Positions 50,841 through 62,341 of a stretch of 64,000 nucleotides of DNA are shown piece after piece. Positions within the stretch are counted from its first letter, which is position 1. Each line of letters begins with the position of its first letter. The stretch covers positions 1-64,000 of the forward strand of contig NZ_VJZC01000005.1 of assembly GCF_009377185.1 (NCBI RefSeq), given 5' to 3'. The notes under the pieces were generated by a model. The model did not search any database. It was not told where the DNA came from and was given only the letters and a program-made list of their open reading frames with translations. The stretch comes from Streptomyces spongiae. Lineage in GTDB: Bacteria > Actinomycetota > Actinomycetes > Streptomycetales > Streptomycetaceae. Both the position numbers and the translations under genes were made by a program.

Positions 50841-50875
50841 GTTACAGTGTCAAGCCCTGGGTTTCGTGGAGACTG

Positions 50876-51221
50876 AGTTAGCTGGTTTTCTGGAGTGACG
50901 CAGGAGGTTCGGCCGCGAGGTAGTGGGCGGCCTCGTGCTCGGCGGGGTGATGTGGCCGAGCTCGCCGTGGAGACGGCGCTGGTTGAACCAGTCGATGTAC
51001 TCGGCGACCGCGACCTCGACGTCGGTGATGCCGGTCCACGGTCCCTTGTTGCGGATCAGCTCGGCCTTGAACAGGCTGTTGAACGCCTCGGCCAGGGCGT
51101 TGTCGTACGAGTCGCCCTTGGAGCCGACCGAGGCCACGGCGGCCTCATGTTCGAGGCGTTCGGTGTAGCGCAGAGCTCGGTATTGGACTCCGCGGTCCGA
51201 GTGGTGCGTGAGGCCGGTCCG
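50876..51221 (-). pseudogene. IS3-family transposase (OrfB) C-terminal remnant
   Basis: The - strand encodes the end of an IS3 DDE transposase: LTHHSDRGVQY (second Asp), SYDNALAEAFNSLFKAEL (catalytic Glu region), then VAEYIDWFNQRRLHGELGHITP. The N-terminal half, OrfA and the inverted repeats are missing. Near 50945 a one-base loss changes frame, so the normal end (AEHEAAHYLA-type) is out of frame. It stops abruptly at about 51221, where an integrase fragment begins on the other strand. Confidence 0.88.
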
Positions 51222-51226
51222 GTCGC

Positions 51227-51890
51227 CGCCCGAACGCCCACCACAACCCGCTGGAGTCGTTCCGCCCACAGCAGCGGGGCGTCTACCGGCAGAAGCAGCC
51301 TGACCGACCGCCCCGGGCAGTGCCTGACGACGTGCTGGACGAGCTGTTCGCGCGGCTGGGGTGCAACCGGGACCGGGCGATGTTCAGCATGTTCTTGTCC
51401 AGCGGCGCGCGGGCTGCCGAGTTGCTGGGCATGACGGTGGGCGACGCTCACCCCGGCGACGGCCGTATCTACGTGCGGACCAAGGGCCTTGGCGGGATCA
51501 AGCAGGCGTGCCCGGCGGCACCGGAGGCGTTCGCCTGGCTGGCTGTCTACCTCGGCGAGCTCCTGGACGCGGGGCACCGGCCCGAGCCGGGCGAGCCGTT
51601 GTGGTGGACCCGTCGTCATCCGCTGCGGCCCTTGACCTACACCGCACTGCGCGCCGTCCTGACTCGGATCAACGACCGGATCGGGGCCAACGTCAGCCTT
51701 CACGATCTGCGGCACACGCTCGGGTTGCGGTTGAGCGGCGACCCCGACGTCACCCTCGTCGACGTCCAGCAGGTGATGCGGCACCGGCAGATCACCACCA
51801 CCGGTGGCTACCTGCGTCCGCGCACCGACGAGGTCATTGCGAAGGTCCACGAGCACTACGCGCGCCCGAAACCGGCGCCGCAGCCGCTGC
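51227..51890 (+). pseudogene. Tyrosine recombinase/integrase C-terminal fragment
   Basis: Only the catalytic domain remains: GARAAELLGMTVGD with the first catalytic Arg, then LHDLRHTLGLRL with His-X2-Arg, a later His in VMRHRQITTTGGYL, and the Tyr in GGYL. The N-terminal DNA-binding part is cut off at the junction with the IS3 remnant. The reading frame continues past 51890 into unrelated sequence without a proper stop. It cannot be a full recombinase. Confidence 0.8.
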
Positions 51891-52110
51891 GAGGCTCAAG
51901 GAATCCCTGGTGCACTTCCATCGGCCGCCCGCGGGTCGGCTGGCGATTCTCGGAGTGCCGAACTTCCTGGAACCGTGGGAGAAACTGTCTCGCCATTCCG
52001 GTGATCGGCTGGTGGTCGCTGTCGAAAACCAGGGCGGGTGGGTCTGGTCCGGAGACCCCATCGAGCCCGATCCGGAAGCTGGCCTGCCGGTCAGTCGATG
52101 CCGTCGATGA
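51889..52110 (+). pseudogene. Possible fragment of an SMI1/KNR4-like gene
   Basis: In a frame different from the integrase, the stretch LKESLVHFHRPPAGRLAI, NFLEPWEKL and DRLVVAVENQGGWVWSGDP looks like the core of SMI1/KNR4-type (toxin-immunity or cell-wall regulator) proteins. There is no start codon or ribosome binding site, and the frame runs into the convergent DUF1330 gene. The family call is from pattern memory only. Confidence 0.3.
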
Positions 52111-52396
52111 TGCGGAAGTCGCGCTCGACGCCGTCGGGGAGGGCCACCAGCGCCTTCTGGTATGCCTCGCTCTCGTATGCCGCGACGGCCTGTTCAAAGC
52201 TGTCGAACTCGATCAGAACGACGCGTTGCGTGATTCCGGCCTCGTGGGCGACGACTCGACCGCCACGGGACGGGATCCGGGACAGGGTGCGCCCGCCCCC
52301 AGCCTGGACAGCCTGACCGGCCAGCTTGTCATAGGCAGTCAGCCCCTCAGGGTCGGAAATGGCGGGGTAGACACTGACCCAGTAGCCCTTAGCCAT
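52091..52396 (-). CDS. DUF1330-domain protein
   Basis: This small protein of 101 aa has the dimeric alpha-beta barrel fold of DUF1330: AKGYWVSVYPAISDPEGLTAY at the start (in part), RVVLIEFDSFEQAVAAYESEAYQKAL, and a C-terminal RDFRIIDGID. AGGAGG precedes ATG 52396. The function of the family is unknown; members often sit beside LysR genes, as here. It is divergent from the LysR gene. Confidence 0.9.
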   Translation of the reverse strand: MAKGYWVSVYPAISDPEGLTAYDKLAGQAVQAGGGRTLSRIPSRGGRVVAHEAGITQRVVLIEFDSFEQAVAAYESEAYQKALVALPDGVERDFRIIDGID

Positions 52397-52584
52397 GGAA
52401 ACCTCCTGTGTTCGGCCGGACACGTCCGACTTCGAATTGACACTCAGATCGATCGATCCCGGTGACGGGTACTGCGGTCAGTTGAACCGTCATATGCGCA
52501 GGTTAGGGCTTGACGTGGGGTCGAGGGAAAGACCGGTACGGGATAGACTCAGAACGGATCGTTATCAATCGGCAGGGAGGCCAC

Positions 52585-53487: not shown

Positions 53488-54003
53488 CGCGCAAGAGGTC
53501 AAGCGAGACGGACGCCTGCGGTGGCAAGGCCGAAGACCCTGCGCCCGGCGGACTGCGCGGTGATGACGACGACGGTGGTCTTGCTGAATGTCCGACACGA
53601 CCTCGCTACGCCGGCGGATCAGCATCCGATGATGGCCCCGGGTCCGGTCCGAGTCGTACACCGCGGCGACGTCCTCGCCCAGCCCGAGATCTCGGCGGAT
53701 ACCGCGCCTTCGCCGACGCCGAACCGGACAAGCACGGGTAACCGGCGGGAACGCCCGCCGTCAACGGCGTCCATGACGTCGGTCAATGCTTAACGCCAAC
53801 CACTGTTCCATTGCTCCCCGAGGCCGGGTTCTCCATCGGCCCTTGATCAGTAGTGCGGAGAAGGATCTCCCGATCCTGCGGGCAGCAGGCATTCTTCGAA
53901 GGACACGTGCACGCGCTGTCTGTGCTGGGAGGTTATGTGGGTGACAACTCTTCCGCGATCTCACGTTGCCGGTCAGGATGGTCGCTCCCGTCGAGGAGCC
54001 CAG
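53488..54003. other. Gene-poor stretch upstream of the Tn554-like genes
   Basis: No intact gene is visible. On the - strand at about 53530-53710 the frame reading RRDLGLGEDVAAVYDSDRTRGHH faintly recalls the N-terminal region of some transposases, but I cannot confirm it. The left end of the Tn554-like unit should lie in this stretch. Confidence 0.4.
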
Positions 54004-55026
54004 ATGGCCTGGCAGCCGCATTTGGTACGACGCGTCGACGCCGCGGGGAACCCCACGGCATCGCTGGGGCACGCCCTGGTCGACGACTATCTGGAGTTCG
54101 TGGCGGCACGCTGCCGGCCGAACACTCTGTTGGCCACCGCCTACGACCTGAAGGTCTTCTTCTCGGTGGTGCCCAAGGAGCCTGCCGACGTCGTCACCGC
54201 GGATGTCTTCGCGTTCATCACCGCGCAGAAGAAGCCGAGGCGGGGACCGAAGGTAGTCCGTCTCGAAGACGGTGAAGCAGGACTCTCGGCTCGGACCATC
54301 AAGCGCCGTCTCGCCAGCATCTCCGGGCTGTTCGGCTACCTCATGACCCGCGACGACCTGGCCGTTGATCGCAACCCGGTGCCGACGGGGCTGGCCAACC
54401 GCCGCCGCAGCGGCAACCGCGGGGCACCGCTCCTGCGCACGCCCCGAACCCTCCCACGCGTTCTCGGCCCGGCTGAGGTCGAAATGGTGCTCGGCGCGGT
54501 GAACACCGCACGGGATAGGGCCATGGTCCTCGCGATGCTGCTCGGCGGGCTTCGCCGCTGCGAGGTCCTCGGCCTGCGGCTGGGCGACCTCTCACCAGGC
54601 GAACGTCGGGTCTTCATCAGCGAGGGCAAGGGCGGCCACCAGCGCTTGATACCCGTCTCCGCGCAGTTCTTCAGCGCGGTCGGCGACTACCTGGACCGTG
54701 AGCGTCCACCCGTCGACCACGATCGAGTGTTCGTGGTGCTGCGCGGGCCCACCCGCGGCCGACCGCTCTCCGCCGATGGTCTGGACGAGATTCTCGATGG
54801 TGTCCGGAAGCGAACAGGACTACCGAGGCTGACCTGTCATCAGCTCAGGCACACCTGCCTGACCCGGCTGCGGGAGGCGGGCATGGCCCTGGAGGCGGTA
54901 CAGGCCCAGGCTGGTCACCGCTCCATCGAGTCGACCCGGATCTACATCCACCTGGCGAACAGCTGGCTGGTCGAGCAATACCTTCAGGCCAGTGCTGCCA
55001 TCGACGCCGACCGGGCGGAGTCCTGA
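54004..55026 (+). CDS. tnpA: Tn554-type tyrosine recombinase TnpA
   Basis: This recombinase is 340 aa from ATG 54004, with GAGGAG upstream; ATG 53935 would add 23 residues. It has an N-terminal SAM-like core-binding domain (LVDDYLEFVAARCRPNTL). The catalytic domain follows with GGLRRCEVLGLRLGDL (Arg), CHQLRHTCLTRL (His-X2-Arg), AGHRSIESTRIYIHL (His and Tyr). Size and the directly coupled second recombinase fit TnpA of Tn554. Its stop overlaps the ATG of tnpB by one base. Confidence 0.9.
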   Translation: MAWQPHLVRRVDAAGNPTASLGHALVDDYLEFVAARCRPNTLLATAYDLKVFFSVVPKEPADVVTADVFAFITAQKKPRRGPKVVRLEDGEAGLSARTIKRRLASISGLFGYLMTRDDLAVDRNPVPTGLANRRRSGNRGAPLLRTPRTLPRVLGPAEVEMVLGAVNTARDRAMVLAMLLGGLRRCEVLGLRLGDLSPGERRVFISEGKGGHQRLIPVSAQFFSAVGDYLDRERPPVDHDRVFVVLRGPTRGRPLSADGLDEILDGVRKRTGLPRLTCHQLRHTCLTRLREAGMALEAVQAQAGHRSIESTRIYIHLANSWLVEQYLQASAAIDADRAES

Positions 55027-56855
55027 TGCGCCGCGCCCGCGCCGCCGCCCTGCCGATCGTGCGCCCGGACCTTGTCGAGTTCTACCTCGCCCACCGGGCC
55101 GCGCAGGGCATGAACACCGACCACAAGGTTCGCTGGGGCGCCCGAGTCCTACTCGCCGCAGTGCCCGACCTCGACGACTTCCGCACGCTGCCGCTGGAAC
55201 GCCAGCTTGCTTTCAACCACGAGACGCACCGGTTCATCAGCTGGCTGGCGGTCACCGGACGCATGCAGCCGGGCGCCGACTACCTGGTCGCCCGGCGTCC
55301 GAGGCTGGGCATCGTGCTCGCACGCACCGAGCCAGAACTGCACCTGCGGTTCATGGAGACCGCCCGCACACTGGGCTTCCGCGACACAGTGGCCATGACC
55401 CAGTTCAACCTGCTGGCCCACTTCATCGCCCTGTTCGGACGGCAGCCGGACCAGCTGCAACAGAGCGACTGGGACCAGGGACGCCGCCTGCTGCTGGAGG
55501 CGGCCTGCCGCATTCCCAATCGCGGCGTCAAGGCCCTCTCGACCGCCTTGTTCAACCTGGAAGCGACGCTCTTCCACTGCGAGTTGACCGACCAGCTCCC
55601 ACGCCGTCGCTCCCCGGACCACGCCGACATGCGTGCCCGCGAGTGGGCCCGCGTCCCTGCCGGGCTGGCGGACACGATGCAGCACTATCTGCAGCAGATC
55701 GCCGGAACGCTGCGGCCGGGAACCGTGAAGAACACTGAGCTGACACTGCGGGAGTTCGCCCTCCTGGTGGCCGCCGAGGACACGGCCGTGACCTGCGTCG
55801 CGGAGCTCAAGCGGCGGCACGTCGAACGCTATCGGCAGTGGCTGCTTGAGCGGCCGGCCGCCCGCGGAGGACCGCTGCACCGGCACACCGTCCGCGACCG
55901 GCTCAGCAAACTCCGCGGCTTCTTCGGCCGCCTGGATGAGTGGGATGCCGCCGACCGGCCGCCCCGCCAGCTGGTCTTCGACAGCGACTTCCCGATCGCG
56001 GACGAACCACTGCCTCGCTTCCTCGATGACGCCGCGGCCGCCAAACTGCTGGCCGCCGCCCGCCAGGACTCCGACCCGTTCACCCGGCTGGCCATCGAGA
56101 TCCTCGCCCGCACCGGGATGCGCCGCAGCGAGATGCTCGGCCTCACCGTCGACGCGATCGTGCAGATCGGCTCCGCCTACTGGCTCCGCGTCCCGGTCGG
56201 CAAGATGCACACCGACCGCTACGTCCCCCTGCACCCGCAATTGAAGACGCTGCTGGACGACTGGCTGCTGCACCGGCCCGAGGGCCTGCGCTCGAACCTG
56301 CTGTTCACCGACCACGGCCGCCCTGTCAACGCCTCCCGCATCGAGGCCGCGGTCCGCAAGGCAGCCGAGCGGGCTGGCCTCGGCCGGGTCACCCCACACC
56401 AGCTCCGGCATACTCTGGCCACCCAGGCGATCAACCGGGGCATGTCGCTGGAGGCCATCGCCGCATTGCTTGGACATAAGTCGCTGTCCATGACCCATGT
56501 TTACGCCCGGATCGCCGACCGCACCGTCGCCGACGAGTACTTCGCCGTCTCGGAGAAGGTTGAGGCACTCTACGACGCACCGCGTCAGCTGCCGGCCGAT
56601 GCCGAGGGCACGGAGATGGCCAAGCTCCGCCGGGAGATGCATCGCCGGATGCTCGGCAACGGCTACTGCGCTCGCCCCATCGAGATGGACTGCCACTTCG
56701 AGTCGATCTGTGAATCGTGCACATTCTTCGTCACCACGATCGAGTTCCGGCCCACCCTCGAACGCCAGCGAGACGACGCGGCAGCGAAGGGACAAGTCAC
56801 ACGCGAGCAGATCTTCGACGGACTCCTCAGCAGACTCGATGGAGAAGCGTCCTGA
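55026..56855 (+). CDS. tnpB: Tn554-type tyrosine recombinase TnpB
   Basis: This is a large recombinase, 609 aa, like TnpB of Tn554 (about 630). A long N-terminal domain precedes a catalytic domain with RTGMRRSEMLGL (Arg), HQLRHTLATQA (His-X2-Arg), LGHKSLSMTHVYARI (His and Tyr). The tail has the Cys cluster YCARPIEMDCHFESICESC, probably a zinc site. All catalytic residues are present. The third partner, TnpC, which aids directionality in Tn554, is not found downstream. The pair looks intact and could be active. Confidence 0.9.
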   Translation: MRRARAAALPIVRPDLVEFYLAHRAAQGMNTDHKVRWGARVLLAAVPDLDDFRTLPLERQLAFNHETHRFISWLAVTGRMQPGADYLVARRPRLGIVLARTEPELHLRFMETARTLGFRDTVAMTQFNLLAHFIALFGRQPDQLQQSDWDQGRRLLLEAACRIPNRGVKALSTALFNLEATLFHCELTDQLPRRRSPDHADMRAREWARVPAGLADTMQHYLQQIAGTLRPGTVKNTELTLREFALLVAAEDTAVTCVAELKRRHVERYRQWLLERPAARGGPLHRHTVRDRLSKLRGFFGRLDEWDAADRPPRQLVFDSDFPIADEPLPRFLDDAAAAKLLAAARQDSDPFTRLAIEILARTGMRRSEMLGLTVDAIVQIGSAYWLRVPVGKMHTDRYVPLHPQLKTLLDDWLLHRPEGLRSNLLFTDHGRPVNASRIEAAVRKAAERAGLGRVTPHQLRHTLATQAINRGMSLEAIAALLGHKSLSMTHVYARIADRTVADEYFAVSEKVEALYDAPRQLPADAEGTEMAKLRREMHRRMLGNGYCARPIEMDCHFESICESCTFFVTTIEFRPTLERQRDDAAAKGQVTREQIFDGLLSRLDGEAS

Positions 56856-56918
56856 CGGCCCCATTCAAGCTGAACGATCCGGCCAGCTGTGATGTGACGC
56901 CGATATCAACAAAAGGGC

Positions 56919-56962
56919 GCCCGATGGGATCGCCAGGCGTCCGCACTGCGATCCCATCGGGC
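56919..56962. terminator. Terminator between tnpB and the deaminase gene
   Basis: A perfect 15-bp stem (GCCCGATGGGATCGC at 56919-56933 with its complement at 56948-56962) has a 14-base loop. It lies between convergent genes, 63 bases after the tnpB stop and 20 bases past the deaminase stop. It could also be part of an element end. Confidence 0.75.
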
Positions 56963-56982
56963 ATGGAGCTATCCACGCTGCA

Positions 56983-57717
56983 TCACTCCACGGCGTCAGG
57001 CGCTTCGACCGTAAACGTCACAAATTCGACTTCGGCATCAGAGGGCAGGCCGGGATAGTGGCCCTGGAGGCCCTTCTTGAGCTGGTCGATGCTCGTGAAG
57101 CCATCGAGCCGAGCCTGTTCGGCGGTGAGGCGATCGAGCCGGTGGCGTTCGACGCCGGTGACGGTGCCCTCCAACGTGCGGGGGGCTTCGTCGTCCTCGA
57201 AGAGGAAGATTGCGGGACCCGGCGCGATCGGATCCTCATAACGGACGGTGGAGGTCTTCCGTGCGGTGGCGATGTCTTCGTAGTAGCGCTTGTTGAACCG
57301 AACAATTCGACGCGCATCCGCATCGGGGTAGAAGTAGGTATCCGGCAGAAGCCTCCGGATCGGGCGCAGTGCCGGTCCGTCGTCGGTCGGTACGGCGACG
57401 AAGACGTCGGGATGGATGTCGAGAAGCGCTTGGCGGCAGCGGCCGCACGGCGGGATCAGGCCGCGACCCCGATCTCCCGCGGCAGCGATTGTGACGAGCG
57501 GGCCGGCTCCCGCTGCTGCGGCGGCACCGAGTACGACGAGCTCTGCGCACGGTCCGCCGGTGAAGTGATAGACGTTGACCGCCTCATAGATGCTGCCGAC
57601 CGTGTCCATCGCCGCTGCGGCAACGGTGTGGTTCGGGTCGCTTCCGAGGGAAGCTGCGAGCCGTTCCGCAGCCTCGATGACGCGGCGCTCGGAGTCGAAG
57701 AGCTTGATGGAGACCAT
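56983..57717 (-). CDS. Blasticidin-S-deaminase-like cytidine deaminase fused to an ASCH-like domain
   Basis: This 244-aa protein starts at ATG 57717. Residues 1-130 are a cytidine-deaminase fold closest to blasticidin S deaminase: VNVYHFTGGPCAELVVLG with zinc ligand Cys57 and catalytic Glu59, and PPCGRCRQALLDIHP with zinc ligands Cys91 and Cys94. The same residues in BSD are 54, 56, 88 and 91, so spacing is identical. Residues 135-244 (VRFNKRYYEDIATARK; RTLEGTVTGVERHRLD) look like an ASCH domain, a PUA-like nucleic-acid or nucleotide binding fold. BSD inactivates the antibiotic by deaminating its cytosine. The gene sits between the Tn554-like recombinases and an IS21 remnant, so it may be transposon cargo. 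A housekeeping or modified-nucleoside role is possible. Confidence 0.8.
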   Translation of the reverse strand: MVSIKLFDSERRVIEAAERLAASLGSDPNHTVAAAAMDTVGSIYEAVNVYHFTGGPCAELVVLGAAAAAGAGPLVTIAAAGDRGRGLIPPCGRCRQALLDIHPDVFVAVPTDDGPALRPIRRLLPDTYFYPDADARRIVRFNKRYYEDIATARKTSTVRYEDPIAPGPAIFLFEDDEAPRTLEGTVTGVERHRLDRLTAEQARLDGFTSIDQLKKGLQGHYPGLPSDAEVEFVTFTVEAPDAVE

Positions 57718-57821
57718 GGCGCCGACCCTAGATCGACTCAGCCGGACTCCTCGACACAATTGTTCTCATGAAGCTTGCCCTCAGCGTGGTCGGCGGCTTG
57801 ACATCGAGACCCGCATATTAG

Positions 57822-58890
57822 AGGAGTGCCCACCGGCAAGGTCCGCTACGACAACCTCACCCCGGCCGTCCGCAAGGTCGTCTTCCGCAGCCGACTGCGG
57901 GAGGAGAACCCGAAGTGGACGGCGCTGCACACCTTCTACGGCTTCACCCCCTTCTACTGCGAGCCCGGACTGCGCGGCGCCCATGAGAAGGGCGGAGTGG
58001 AGGGCCAGGTCGGCTACTTCCGGCGCAATTACCTCACCCCCGTCCCGCGAGTAGAGACGCTGGAGGACCTCAACGGGCAGATCACCGCGTTCGAGGAGCG
58101 GGAGCTTCAGCGGCGGATCGGCTCACGGATCCGCACCATCGGCCAGGACTTCGCGCGGGAGGCGCCGCACCTGCTGCCGCTGCCGATGGATGCGTTCGAG
58201 ACTGCGATGACCTTTCAGCCGCGGGTCGACCGCTACAGCCGGATCACGGTGAAGATGTGCTCCTACTCCGTCCCGGTCCGATTCATCGACCACAAGGTCA
58301 CTGTCCACCTGACCGGCGACATGCTGGTCGTCTTCGCGGGCCGCCGCGAGATCGCCCGCCATGCCCGGCTCGCCGGCCGCGGTCTGGAGCACCTGGTCCT
58401 GGACCACTATCTGGAGGTGCTGCTGCGCAAGCCCGGCGCCCTGGATCGCTCCGAGGCACTCCACCAGGCCCGCGCGGAGGGCACGTTCACCGCCGAGCAC
58501 GAGGCGTTCTGGGCCATGGCCCAGCGGCAGCTCGGCGAGATCGATGGAACGAAGGCCCTGGTCAGGGTTCTGCTCCTGCACCGCCATCAGCAGCACAGGG
58601 ACTTGCTGGCGGGCCTGCGGGCCTCCGTCGACCTGGGCACCTGCAGCGACGACGTGGTCGCCCTGGAAGCCCGCAAGGCCGCCCAGGCAGCCGGCCGGGC
58701 CCCCACCGTCACCGCCACACCGGCACCGGCAGCGGCGGACCCGACGGAACTGCCAGATCCCCAGTTGTCGCAGGTCAGCCATCTCACTCCACGCCGTCTG
58801 GCCCGGCCCCTGCCTGAGGATGCCCGCCCGCTGCCCCGCCTGGAGCAGTGGGACGAACTGCTGAACCTGCGCCGGAAGGATTCGTCAGGA
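57822..58890 (+). pseudogene. IS21-family IstA transposase, 5'-truncated
   Basis: The frame begins in the middle of the catalytic core: KVRYDNLTPAVRKVV (second Asp), then GLRGAHEKGGVEGQVGYFRR (catalytic Glu). A complete C-terminal half follows. The N-terminal HTH and the first catalytic Asp are missing, so it cannot transpose. The frame stays open past the expected IstA end into the istB region. Confidence 0.85.
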
Positions 58891-59300
58891 CTGCCGCCCA
58901 TCACGCGCTCACCGCCCAGGCGTCCGACGCCGCGATCGACACCGCCTGCCGAATGCTGCGGCTGCCCACCATGCGGGCGCAGGCCGCCGACACCATCGCC
59001 CGCGCCGAACGCGAAGGGCTCTCCTACGCCGGATTCCTCGCCGAGCTCCTGCTCGCCGAGTGCGAGGACCGCGACCGCGGCAGGGCCGAACGCCGCATCC
59101 GGGCTGCCCACTTCCCGCGCGAGAAGTCGCTGCGCGAGTTCGAATACACCGCCAACCCCAATGTCGATCCGGCCGTCATCCACAGCCTCGCCACCTGCGA
59201 CTGGATCACCAAGGGCTACCCGCTGTGCCTGATCGGGGACTCTGGCACCGGCAAGTCCCACCTGCTGATCGGCTTGGGCACCGCGGCTGCCATGGCCGGA
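58848..59300 (+). pseudogene. IS21-family IstB ATPase, 3'-truncated
   Basis: The fragment covers the helical N-terminal part (DTACRMLRLPT, REKSLREFEY) and the Walker A motif GDSGTGKSHLLIGLG, then ends near 59300 in unrelated sequence (AGDAGGHTGDS). Walker B, the sensor motifs and the rest of the ATPase are gone. With the truncated istA upstream this is an IS21 remnant lacking both ends. The 170 bases to the next gene show nothing I recognise. Confidence 0.85.
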
Positions 59301-59470: not shown

Positions 59471-62341
59471 TCAGACCCGCACCTGCTGTTCGCACCAGAT
59501 GGACTTGCCGGTGGTGGTGTACCGCGTGCCCCAGCGCTGGGCCATGGCGGCGACGAGCTGGAGGCCGCGGCCCCCCTCGTCGAGGGCTGCCGGGTGGCGG
59601 ATGTGCGGGGTGGTGATACTGCCGTCGGAGACCTCGCAGATGAGGGAGTGGCTGCGCATCATGCGTAGTCCGATGGGGCCACGGGCATGGCGGACGACGT
59701 TGCCGACCAGTTCGCTGACGATCAGCTCGGTGGTCATCTCCAGCTCCCCGAGGTCCCATTCTTCGAGCTGGTCACGGACGAGCCGGCGGGCCTGGGCGCA
59801 GGCGGTGGGTTCGTCCGGCAGGTCCCAGACCGCGATGTCCTCCGCGGCCGTGGCCCTGGTGCGGGTGATCAGAAGTGCGGCGTCGTCGGGAGCGGGCCGG
59901 TCGGAGGAGAGCACGGCGGCCGTGACCATGTCGCACAACTCGTCCGGCTCGGCCTCGTGCCCGTCAGTCTGCGTTCCGGCCGTGTACAGGGCGGTGGTCA
60001 GCGTGCGGCTCAGGCAGGCCATGTCCTCGTCGATGTCGTGTCCGGGGATCTCCACCAGGCCGTCGGTGTAGAGGGCGAGGACACTGCCACCGGGCAGGTG
60101 GACGTCGTGAACGGCGAAGGGTGGGGCGGCGACGCCCAGAGGCGGATCCGGGTCGGCCGGGAGGAAGGTCGCGGTGCCGTGCGGGAGGGCGACGACGGGC
60201 GGCGGATGACCGGCGTTGGTGTAGGTGAACATCTGGGTCGTGGGGTCGTAGATGCCGTATATGCAGGTGGTGAAGGATTCCTCGTCGAGTTCGGCGACGA
60301 GGTCGTTCGCGTGGGCGAGGATGTCCTCGGGGGGCAGTTCGAGCTCGGACAGGGTCCGGACGGCGGTGCGCAGGCGTCCCATGGTGGCGGCCTCGGGCAT
60401 GCCATGGCCCATGACGTCCCCGATGACCAGCGCGACCCGGTCGGCTGACAGCGGGATGATGTCGTACCAGTCCCCTCCTACGTCGGCACCGCGCGCGGAG
60501 GGCAGGTAGCGGGCGGCGGCGGTGACCGCGGGAAGAGAGGGCAGTACGCGAGGCAGCAGCGCGTGCTGAAGGTCGTGGGCGTGCGCGATGGCCGCGTCGT
60601 AGAGCCCGGCCCGCTCCAGGGCTTGCGCGACCAGGCCGCTGAGCGCGGTGAGCAGAGTCCGCTCGTCCTCATCGAAGTGATGTGGCCGGTCGTAGGAGAT
60701 CACGGACATGCCGATGGGGCGGCCTGAGACGATCAGCGGCAGGAACGCGCAGGCCTGCATCCCCTCGGCGTTCGCCAGGTCGGGCCGCTGTGGATGCCGG
60801 GCCAGGAAGTCCTCGACCGAGGCGATGAACTCCGGTGTGTGGGATCGCATGGCCTCGCCGGTGGCGGCGGATGCCACCGACGTGCCGTGTATCCGCTCGA
60901 CGAACGAGTCCGAGTAGCCGGTCGAACCCACGACGTTCAGGTGTTCCTCCTTCAGTTCCAGCACGATCAGCCCCGTTGCGTCGAACGGCGGCAGGACGCT
61001 CTCGGCGACGGCCTCCACCACGTCGTGGGCGGTGGCCGCCTCGGCCAGCGCCCGGGTCAGCCGGGCCATCAGCGCCGCCCGTTCGGCCGCCGCGTGTTCC
61101 GCGGCTCGGCGCTCTGCCTCGCGTCGGCGTCGCTCGGTGATGTCGGTGAGGTAGACCGTCAGCCCGTCGGGTACCGGCACCAGGCGCAGGTGATACCACT
61201 GGTGGTCCTGGGGGCCGGGAACCTCGGAGCTCCACGGTTCACTCCCCGCGGCGGCCCGGCGGCAGCGCTCCGCCGCCTCGGGCACCTCCCGTAGCACGGG
61301 CACCTCCCACAACGGACGGCCGACGAGCGTGCGCGGGGAACCGAGCATCCGCTCGGCCGCGGTGTTGACGAACGCGATGCGTCCGTCGCTGGCGACCGAC
61401 AGGAACCCGTCGCTCATGTGCAGCAGGGCCCTGCCCACCGACTCCAGCGCCGCGTGCGTCGCGGTGGTGTCCCACGTCGTTCCGCTCAGACGGACCGGTT
61501 CACCGTCGTCGTCCGTGGTGACGTGTGCGCGGCTGCGTATCCAGGCGTACGTCCCGTCCATGCGGGCGACCCGGTACTGGACGTCCAGTACGCCGCGAGT
61601 GCGGATCACTCGGTCGGCCTCGGTCAGCACCCAGGGCTGGTCGTCCGGGTGGATCAGCACAGTCCATCGGTCGATCCGGCCACCGACCGCGACCGGATCC
61701 ACACCCAGCGTCTCGAGTACCGGTCCGCCGAAGGTCAGCTCACCCGTGCGCAGGTCCCACGACCAGGTCCCGGCCTCCACCGCCTCCGGCCGCGTGCTCG
61801 GCTCGTTCTGCGGCCCGGGTGTCGGAGGCTGCGCCGGGGACCCGCCGACCGGATCCGCCTCCCGCCCCAGAAGCAGGCCGGGCGTCACGCCCTCCGGGCC
61901 GCGCGGCCTCCAGCGCAGTCGCCCGCCGACCCACTGCGCCACCTCCTCGAGGAACGCCCGGCAGCCGGGATCCGGCGCTCGGGACAGGGGGACCACAATG
62001 GACAGGGCACCCAGCGGCCCGTCCGGTCCGGGCAGTGGCGCCGCCGCCATTCCGGCGTCCGGCAGCAGGCCCGCCGTGGTCGGGGGGAGCGGCGGCCGGC
62101 CGTAGGCGAGTTCTGGTGCGCCGATGTGGGGCAGGTAGACGAACGCGTCCCGCTGGACGCACCGGGCCGGAGAGACCGAACCGTCCTCGGAGATGTAGTC
62201 CCAGGACCGCGTGAAGGCGCGGGTCAGCCCGGTGCTCGCCGCCAGCGCCAGTTCTCCGCCGACGGCCGAAGCCCGTATGTGCGCCATGCCGCCGAGCCCG
62301 CCGAGCTCGGCGGTGGCGTGCAGCAGGGCGTGGGGCAGCAC
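59471..62341 (-). CDS. GAF-PAS-PAS-GAF-SpoIIE phosphatase-HATPase signalling protein
   Basis: This large sensor-phosphatase is 956 aa from GTG 62341. An N-terminal GAF-like region precedes two PAS domains (about 190-300 and 310-420), a GAF domain (about 440-600), the SpoIIE PP2C domain (VGGDWYDIIPLS, GDVMGHGMPE, LYTDGLVE) and a HATPase domain (SELVGNVVRHA, GGRGLQLVAAM). It is a paralogue of the protein at 12570-14936, with a matching end (YTTTGK-IW-EQ). Protein-like sequence continues about 20-30 codons upstream of the GTG (DTVRAERLRLLAGLQDDP) without any ATG, GTG or TTG, so the true start may be a CTG or has been lost to a frameshift. Confidence 0.9.
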   Translation of the reverse strand: MLPHALLHATAELGGLGGMAHIRASAVGGELALAASTGLTRAFTRSWDYISEDGSVSPARCVQRDAFVYLPHIGAPELAYGRPPLPPTTAGLLPDAGMAAAPLPGPDGPLGALSIVVPLSRAPDPGCRAFLEEVAQWVGGRLRWRPRGPEGVTPGLLLGREADPVGGSPAQPPTPGPQNEPSTRPEAVEAGTWSWDLRTGELTFGGPVLETLGVDPVAVGGRIDRWTVLIHPDDQPWVLTEADRVIRTRGVLDVQYRVARMDGTYAWIRSRAHVTTDDDGEPVRLSGTTWDTTATHAALESVGRALLHMSDGFLSVASDGRIAFVNTAAERMLGSPRTLVGRPLWEVPVLREVPEAAERCRRAAAGSEPWSSEVPGPQDHQWYHLRLVPVPDGLTVYLTDITERRRREAERRAAEHAAAERAALMARLTRALAEAATAHDVVEAVAESVLPPFDATGLIVLELKEEHLNVVGSTGYSDSFVERIHGTSVASAATGEAMRSHTPEFIASVEDFLARHPQRPDLANAEGMQACAFLPLIVSGRPIGMSVISYDRPHHFDEDERTLLTALSGLVAQALERAGLYDAAIAHAHDLQHALLPRVLPSLPAVTAAARYLPSARGADVGGDWYDIIPLSADRVALVIGDVMGHGMPEAATMGRLRTAVRTLSELELPPEDILAHANDLVAELDEESFTTCIYGIYDPTTQMFTYTNAGHPPPVVALPHGTATFLPADPDPPLGVAAPPFAVHDVHLPGGSVLALYTDGLVEIPGHDIDEDMACLSRTLTTALYTAGTQTDGHEAEPDELCDMVTAAVLSSDRPAPDDAALLITRTRATAAEDIAVWDLPDEPTACAQARRLVRDQLEEWDLGELEMTTELIVSELVGNVVRHARGPIGLRMMRSHSLICEVSDGSITTPHIRHPAALDEGGRGLQLVAAMAQRWGTRYTTTGKSIWCEQQVRV

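Follow-up and report, generated by a model that had tools for sequence, protein, structure and literature searches.

A YqfB-type ASCH domain fused to a blasticidin-S-deaminase-type domain in Streptomyces spongiae: a candidate two-step enzyme for N4-acylated cytosine nucleosides

The fusion gene and its surroundings

The window, a stretch of 64,000 nucleotides of the S. spongiae genome (contig NZ_VJZC01000005.1), carries on its minus strand at positions 56983-57717 a gene for a protein of 244 amino acids, with the ATG at 57717 and the stop codon at 56985-56983. A sequence-only reading of this DNA had given no orientation for the gene; read on the plus strand, the interval is an unrelated open frame. 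The close homologues of the protein (group A, 78-98% identical to it, with all named carriers belonging to Streptomyces) align from the methionine encoded at 57717, and the annotated start of one of them (L059) agrees with this position. The window copy of the gene is intact, with its motifs in place. It encodes a domain of the blasticidin S deaminase (BSD) type (residues 1-130; positions 57328-57717) followed by an ASCH domain of the YqfB type (residues 138-238; positions 57004-57306). Our promoter search found no sigma-70-like promoter for the gene, and a terminator-like stem-loop located 3' of it on the same strand (56918-56939) is a weak candidate, since one such structure was found versus 0.7 expected by shuffling.

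Two tyrosine recombinase genes adjoin the fusion gene on the plus strand. The first (53935-55026) encodes a TnpA-like protein of 363 amino acids (Pfam Phage_integrase, 8e-32); the second (55026-56855) encodes a TnpB-like protein of 609 amino acids (Pfam Phage_integrase, 1e-33) and is convergent with the fusion gene. We take their size and overlapping order to be like those of TnpA and TnpB of Tn554; the sequence-only reading had called the recombinases Tn554-like. The mobile setting suggested there holds for the window's own subgroup; among ten other close loci, the same recombinases lie beside the fusion gene only in L027, where the tnpA-like gene is represented over its full extent in three pieces and the tnpB-like gene by residues 1-454 of 609. 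Pieces of tnpB adjoin the fusion gene in L024 and L025, and no recombinase pieces were found beside it in the other seven of these ten loci. On its other side, the fusion gene is divergent from a plus-strand istA-like remnant of an IS21 element (57826-59232), which matches the NCBIfam model transpos_IS21 (7e-21) over profile positions 180-293 of 294 only and recurs in L024, L025 (weakly, E=5e-4), L027 and L031.

Comparison of the window with the ten group A loci showed that the conserved DNA consists mostly of the gene and short flanks. The core of this block spans positions 56983-57764, and in the close relatives it mostly reaches to about 56875-56975 on one side and 57808-57878 on the other. 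It is present as single pieces of 782-1577 bases with 82-98% identity in L023-L029, L031 and L059 and as two pieces in L030, and extends further in L024 and L027. We had considered a shared end of the conserved DNA near position 57858 as the boundary of an element, and dropped this idea because in L024, L027 and L031 a more sensitive search extended the similarity as far as the istA-like remnant. Elsewhere in the window, positions 50850-52465 hold an IS3 transposase fragment and a further, apparently truncated, tyrosine recombinase, so that the segment from 50.8 to 59.2 kb looks like an insertion hot spot. A large PAS/GAF/SpoIIE phosphatase with a HATPase domain is encoded beside this mobile region (59471-62341, minus strand); other SpoIIE proteins are encoded close to the fusion in L028, L069 and L070, probably because such proteins are common.

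The genomic context of the fusion was compared in 35 stretches, of which L081 duplicates L030, L082 contains a fragment and L083 contains a stand-alone deaminase. Apart from the fusion itself, no cluster was present in more than six of them, with a gene picking so rough that it missed the fusion in several. The only ones to reach four stretches or more belong to common families, namely IS4/5-type transposases (six stretches), ABC transporter ATPases (four) and SpoIIE phosphatases (four). Neighbours shared by two loci of one group include a TetR regulator and an aldo-keto reductase, both in group D. A conserved operon partner is unsupported by these data, given that the top cluster reaches 6 of the 35 stretches. 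Seven genomes carry the fusion on a contig longer than 7 Mb; in six of them its distance from a contig end is at most about 0.53 Mb (in G612 it is found mid-contig), and G582 possesses one copy near each contig end.

Domain types and active-site residues

The N-terminal half of the protein matches blasticidin S deaminase over residues 8-130, with E-values against the solved structures 1wn5 and 3oj6 (5e-34 and 9e-31, respectively) that are far beyond chance and bear out the type proposed for this domain from sequence. The best solved plain cytidine deaminase (CDA) reached 1e-10 versus 5e-34 for 1wn5, and the cut-offs of the NCBIfam CDA equivalogs were missed by wide scores (46 vs 131, 45 vs 74 and 37 vs 114 bits). 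In the zinc region, the Pfam model dCMP_cyt_deam_1 gave 23.8 bits (E=4e-5) and so fell slightly short of its 25-bit cut-off; 15 of the 16 fusion homologues scanned matched the deaminase model at E<=0.01. The stretch NVYHFTGGPCAE (residues 48-59; 57541-57576, minus strand) contains, by homology, the zinc ligand Cys57 and the proton shuttle Glu59, and PCGRCRQ (residues 90-96; 57430-57450, minus strand) contains, likewise by homology, the zinc ligands Cys91 and Cys94. Both stretches are present as the sequence-only reading had claimed, and minus-strand translation and alignments confirm the four residues in the spacing given there. Cys57, Glu59 and Cys91 are found in all 32 distinct fusions that we collected.

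The loop that contacts the nucleoside sugar was also compared. In a docked model of CDA_F14, the ribose is hydrogen-bonded by Asn42, Glu44, Ala46 and Tyr48 (PMC9897663, in excerpt). The CDA-like protein encoded elsewhere in the window's genome (L003) has all four of these residues in its loop CNVENASYGLGLCAE. The corresponding loop of the window protein, VNVYHFTGGPCAE, is two residues shorter than that of L003, as it is in both BSD structures; it has Tyr for Glu44 and Phe for Tyr48, and lacks two residues at Ala46. Since the window protein and both BSD structures retain only the Asn of the ribose contacts, the deaminase pocket is, by sequence, of the blasticidin type. By its Cys-X-Glu and Cys-X2-Cys residues, and by E-values, loop and tree that place it closer to BSD than to housekeeping CDAs, the domain belongs to the BSD type and falls outside the housekeeping cytidine deaminases.

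The BSD of Aspergillus terreus (1wn5; also 3oj6) shares the whole N-terminal half, the zinc and proton-shuttle residues and the BSD-type loop with our protein. In the solved structure BSD consists of one domain only (130 amino acids), whereas in the window protein a YqfB-type domain is fused to it, and the C-terminal Trp of 1wn5 (GYVW) is replaced by Tyr in the window protein but is Trp in groups C and D. Stand-alone BSD-like proteins also occur in Streptomyces; a BSD of S. lividans is reportedly of this kind (Li and colleagues, 2013). These proteins have the same motifs and are mostly 46-57% identical over the deaminase half (53% for L002, from the window's own genome) but, unlike the fusion, have no ASCH domain. 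Tetrameric CDAs of the CDA_F14 type belong to the same superfamily and act on N4-acylated cytosine nucleosides, yet they have no amidohydrolase domain and bind ribose via residues mostly absent in the window protein (PMC9897663, in excerpt).

The C-terminal half contains the ASCH domain that the sequence-only reading had suspected; it scores 37.9 bits with Pfam ASCH (PF04266) against a cut-off of 21.2 (E=3e-9, residues 141-237), and all 16 fusion homologues scanned match this model at E<=0.01. Residues 139-232 match E. coli YqfB (1te7) at 8.5e-5. When a profile of 15 sequences (13 fusion halves and two stand-alone proteins) was compared to solved structures, YqfB alone scored below E=0.3 (1te7, 9.3e-9; 9kyf, 2.9e-8), the next match having an E-value of 0.34. 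A structure prediction of the full protein with ten close sequences gave a mean pLDDT of 50.5 and was set aside, and the model of the ASCH half is of low confidence (pLDDT 60.5). A fold search with the latter returned three matches at E<=0.001, all of them YqfB and the first with bound N4-acetylcytidine (ac4C); at ranks 4-18 came the older structure of YqfB, domains named as ASCH, and hypothetical proteins that in part are presumably ASCH proteins. Since TM-scores were low (0.26-0.39) and the rmsd high (11.7-14 Å), this search lends weak support to a YqfB-like fold.

The motif ARKTSTVR (residues 152-159; 57241-57264, minus strand) provides Lys154, Thr157 and Arg159 at the positions of YqfB Lys21, Thr24 and Arg26. 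Exchange of any of these three for alanine abolished the activity of YqfB, while E74A lowered turnover 100-1000-fold and H70A more than tenfold (PMC6972931, in excerpt). Lys21 is kept in 31 of the 32 distinct fusions, and Thr24, Arg26 and Tyr89 in every one. In contrast to YqfB, the position of His70 is never His and that of Asp27 never Asp in these 32 proteins, and the Glu74 position is occupied by Asp (18 proteins), Glu (11) or, once each, by Asn, Pro or Gly. The corresponding residues of the window protein are Gln201, Tyr160 and Asp205, the last of which may keep the acid role of Glu74. Thus, the fusion shares with E. coli YqfB (1te7, 9kyf-9kyh) the ASCH family, the Lys/Thr/Arg centre and Tyr89, and differs from it in the exchanges of His70 to Gln, Asp27 to Tyr and Glu74 to Asp, as well as by its fused deaminase. 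Its ASCH half reaches 20.3 bits with the N4-acetylcytidine amidohydrolase equivalog NF003443, far under the cut-off of 93. Since Glu74, His70 and the curated score are all lacking, it would be wrong to classify the fusion as a YqfB equivalog. Thr at the Thr24 position is not general to ASCH domains, for Glu occupies it in the two further ASCH proteins found in this genome (GRKTIEVR and GSKTVEVR); a distant actinobacterial set with GRKTATIR (L113-L116) has Thr at this catalytic position, and its members may be further amidohydrolases.

These data bear on what the ASCH half does. The sequence-only reading had it bind nucleic acids or modified nucleotides, so that the fusion might recognise a modified cytidine in RNA. 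Since the catalytic YqfB subtype is the closest one and the Lys/Thr/Arg centre is retained, we prefer to see in the ASCH half a second enzyme, which most likely works like YqfB, and not a domain for binding. A deaminase targeted by its ASCH domain to modified cytidine in nucleic acids, be it in editing, as an effector or against phages, would be in keeping with the known or predicted binding of modified bases by some ASCH/PUA/EVE domains (PMC7641849, in excerpt). We regard this explanation as very improbable: no nucleic-acid binding was seen for YqfB analogues (PMC9599836, in excerpt), no PADLOC or PHROG model matched at E<=0.01, no relative of the fusion was found among 50,697 phage records, and none was confirmed in IMG/VR by whole-protein and deaminase alignments at the sensitivity used.

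A BSD-type deaminase whose ASCH domain is non-catalytic and only recognises the substrate or another cytosine compound, which comes near to what the sequence-only reading had in mind, would account for the loss of His70 and Asp27 and the replacement of Glu74 by Asp in the window protein. It would also fit the faster evolution of the ASCH half and the existence of a variant devoid of Lys154 (see below). Against it stands the retention of all three of Lys, Thr and Arg, which are essential in YqfB (PMC6972931, in excerpt), in 31 of the 32 fusions and in the stand-alone relatives L117, L118, L120 and L121, and we therefore consider a non-catalytic ASCH half improbable.

Distribution, trees and selection

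We collected 39 fusion open frames, which collapsed to 32 distinct ones when identical sequences were merged. In addition to group A, these comprise group B (L004, L005 and the Curtobacterium plasmid copy L060; 55-62% identity to the window protein), groups C and D (about 41-46%) and a copy on a Rhodococcus plasmid (33%). The fusion is present in at least 22 of 392 genomes of the window's genus, including the window's genome and one deleted variant; fusion proteins of carriers in this set are identical to those of named Streptomyces. Among 394 genomes sampled across the class, at least 5 carry it. Six plasmid copies (H1-H5 and H8) are found in PLSDB, where they are labelled only 'ASCH domain-containing protein'. 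The fusion is real and patchy in Actinomycetota, and its occurrence on plasmids, its differing neighbours and the recurring transposases show that its distribution is that of a mobile gene.

Trees were calculated separately for the two halves, with a set of sequences, used also for the motif counts, that excluded the context loci L064-L083 (repeats, or none of interest). The deaminase tree has three clades, one with groups A and B and the split copy of Paenarthrobacter (96/98), one that unites groups C and D (100/97) and one of 21 stand-alone proteins (95/98); four other stand-alone proteins are unplaced, as is L063 on its long branch. In the ASCH tree, groups A and B and the split copy group with three stand-alone proteins (90/84), group D is recovered (82/94), group C has one stand-alone protein inside (83/59), and C and D are unjoined. 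The two trees indicate that the deaminase and ASCH halves have largely travelled together, with deep forks that are weak; the stand-alone ASCH proteins that fall within fusion groups point to loss of the partner domain or to its separate use.

Selection on the two halves was estimated by pairwise dN/dS in groups A, C and D, without L030 because of its deletion. Median values for the deaminase and ASCH halves were 0.16 and 0.28 in group A (45 pairs), 0.09 and 0.20 in group C (15 pairs) and 0.10 and 0.21 in group D (55 pairs). An earlier set of nine group A genes had given 0.165 and 0.34, and individual pairs there reached 0.51 and 0.62. Constraint is evident on both halves and is weaker on the ASCH half in each group.

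Groups C and D differ from the other fusions in their zinc site. All of their members, 17 of the 32 distinct fusions (L006, L007, L038-L051 and L061), possess PCGRDRQ, with Asp in place of the third zinc cysteine (Cys94); this position is Cys in all 24 stand-alone BSD-like proteins that we inspected. In CDA_F14, replacement of two or three of the zinc cysteines by His gave inactive enzyme (PMC9897663, in excerpt). The exchange of a zinc ligand makes deamination unsure in groups C and D. The Asp-type fusions form one clade in the deaminase tree and have low dN/dS values; as purifying selection acts on their deaminase half, the altered site is probably still in use, and the Asp perhaps serves as a metal ligand.

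Several broken relatives were encountered. A group A variant (L030:6001-6645 and L037, the same protein, from G566) lacks residues around the junction of the two domains and where the ASCH domain begins, the stretch with the catalytic Lys154 included, but keeps the deaminase in an open frame. On plasmid pYJN5-2 of Paenarthrobacter sp. YJN-5 (L119:4998-7167) an IS256 transposase gene lies between the deaminase and ASCH halves, and G458 holds (L082; C1 near 11.836 Mb) a piece of the ASCH half only, 93-94% identical and about 0.3 Mb from the contig end. Such deletions, fragments and insertions, together with the recombinase and IS remnants that flank the fusion gene, would be expected if the gene were a decaying mobile passenger without present function in this strain. 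The window copy, however, is intact and retains its motifs, and the low dN/dS medians of group A in both sets argue against decay, which we hold to be highly unlikely.

Proposed function as a two-step enzyme for cytosine nucleosides

The protein is most likely a bifunctional enzyme that inactivates external N4-acylated cytosine nucleosides with a single polypeptide chain, a reading to which we assign a probability of roughly 0.52. Sequence analysis establishes that two domains are joined, to which family each belongs, that their active-site residues are conserved, that both halves are under selection and that the gene is patchy and mobile. In the proposed scheme, Lys154, Thr157 and Arg159 of the ASCH half, with Asp205 replacing YqfB Glu74, would cleave the amide bond that holds the acyl group on N4 of cytosine. 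The 4-amino group set free in this way would then be exchanged for oxygen by the zinc deaminase half, giving a uracil nucleoside by an irreversible change. The likeliest natural substrates would be the pyranosyl cytosine antibiotics: both steps would be needed for amicetin, plicacetin, bamicetin and the streptcytosines with their N4-acyl arms, whereas blasticidin S, with its free amino group, would require deamination only. That both halves are catalytic, that deacylation comes first, that antibiotics are the target and which ones these are, we infer from sequence. The sequence-only reading had also thought of a nucleoside antibiotic; this part of it is plausible and is narrowed here to N4-acylated cytosines.

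The chemistry of both the enzymes and the antibiotics is compatible with this proposal. The N4-acyl groups that YqfB and four analogues removed from cytosine nucleosides were acetyl, hexanoyl, nicotinoyl and benzoyl, with N4-benzoylcytidine among the substrates; hydrolysis was slow for nicotinoyl and acetyl-benzoyl groups (PMC9599836, in excerpt). Amicetin, plicacetin, bamicetin and the streptcytosines are N4-acylated pyranosyl cytosines made by Streptomyces (PMC4278220, in excerpt), and blasticidin S and amicetin are similar enough that chimeras of the two, joined through PABA arms at the C4 amine, are being made as ribosome inhibitors (PMC12856912, in excerpt). A BSD-type pocket together with a YqfB-type deacylase would fit the chemistry of pyranosyl cytosines. 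The cytosine-PABA amide of amicetin is, we assume, a bond like that of N4-benzoylcytidine; the parts of PMC12856912 and PMC4278220 consulted agree with this.

Some observations weigh against the proposal. The arm of amicetin is larger than the acetyl-benzoyl arm that YqfB analogues left much unhydrolysed; with N4-(3- or 4-acetyl-benzoyl)-2'-deoxycytidine, much of the compound remained after 24 h (PMC9599836, in excerpt). Ordinary CDAs can remove N4-acyl groups unaided (PMC9897663, in excerpt), and the dN/dS of the ASCH half, above that of the deaminase half in each group, counts against a bifunctional enzyme. The same holds for the replaced YqfB residues His70, Asp27 and, in most fusions, Glu74, for the low NF003443 score, for the Asp at the Cys94 position in groups C and D and for the group A variant devoid of Lys154. 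No fusion was seen inside a nucleoside-antibiotic cluster in the annotation of five plasmid stretches or among the recurring neighbours. We are doubtful of the more specific version, a mobile single-gene resistance enzyme for N4-acylated cytosine antibiotics of the amicetin class that would perform YqfB-type N4-deacylation followed by blasticidin-type C4-deamination and comprise two subfamilies with a Cys-to-Asp change of zinc ligand and an altered metal site, and we offer it tentatively.

The same two reactions could instead serve salvage, by which ac4C from the decaying RNA of other organisms would be converted to cytidine and then to uridine for growth. This is unlikely in our estimation. 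Pfam families PF13718 and PF05636, which we take to be TmcA and TmcAL, the known bacterial ac4C writers, were each found in none of 21 genomes (the window's genome and 20 relatives) and in none of 24 further fusion carriers, with positive controls for PF13718 in E. coli and PF05636 in B. subtilis. With neither writer family in the 25 fusion carriers (window's genome included), the source of ac4C would have to be external. Salvage does have in its favour that YqfB and the YqfB analogues are considered to act chiefly on ac4C (PMC9599836, in excerpt). It is at odds, however, with a deaminase loop without most of the CDA ribose contacts, with a genome that possesses its own CDA-like protein (L003) and with a gene that is patchy, plasmid-borne and mostly located near chromosome ends. 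The absence of writers, the blasticidin-type loop and the patchy, mobile gene thus favour detoxification of outside cytosine nucleosides over salvage.

We did not find the fusion described in the open-licence PMC literature that we searched. No papers there combined 'ASCH domain' with 'cytidine deaminase', and among the papers listed, titles and abstract openings revealed none on an ASCH-deaminase fusion or on an enzyme inactivating amicetin-class antibiotics; nor did we find a crystal-structure paper on YqfB with ac4C from 2024 on. In the part of PMC7641849 available, a deaminase is named once and is porphobilinogen deaminase. Known enzymes are the models for both halves, which are variants of them; what is new is the fused pair with its predicted two-step action.

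If the proposed function is correct, a soil gene encoding both steps would constitute a ready route of resistance against chimeras of blasticidin S and amicetin, and the protein would provide a one-protein tool for N4-acyl cytosine groups. A partnership between CDA and YqfB, on which PMC9897663 only speculated, would be realised in one chain, and ASCH domains, mostly without an assigned function, would gain a new catalytic setting.
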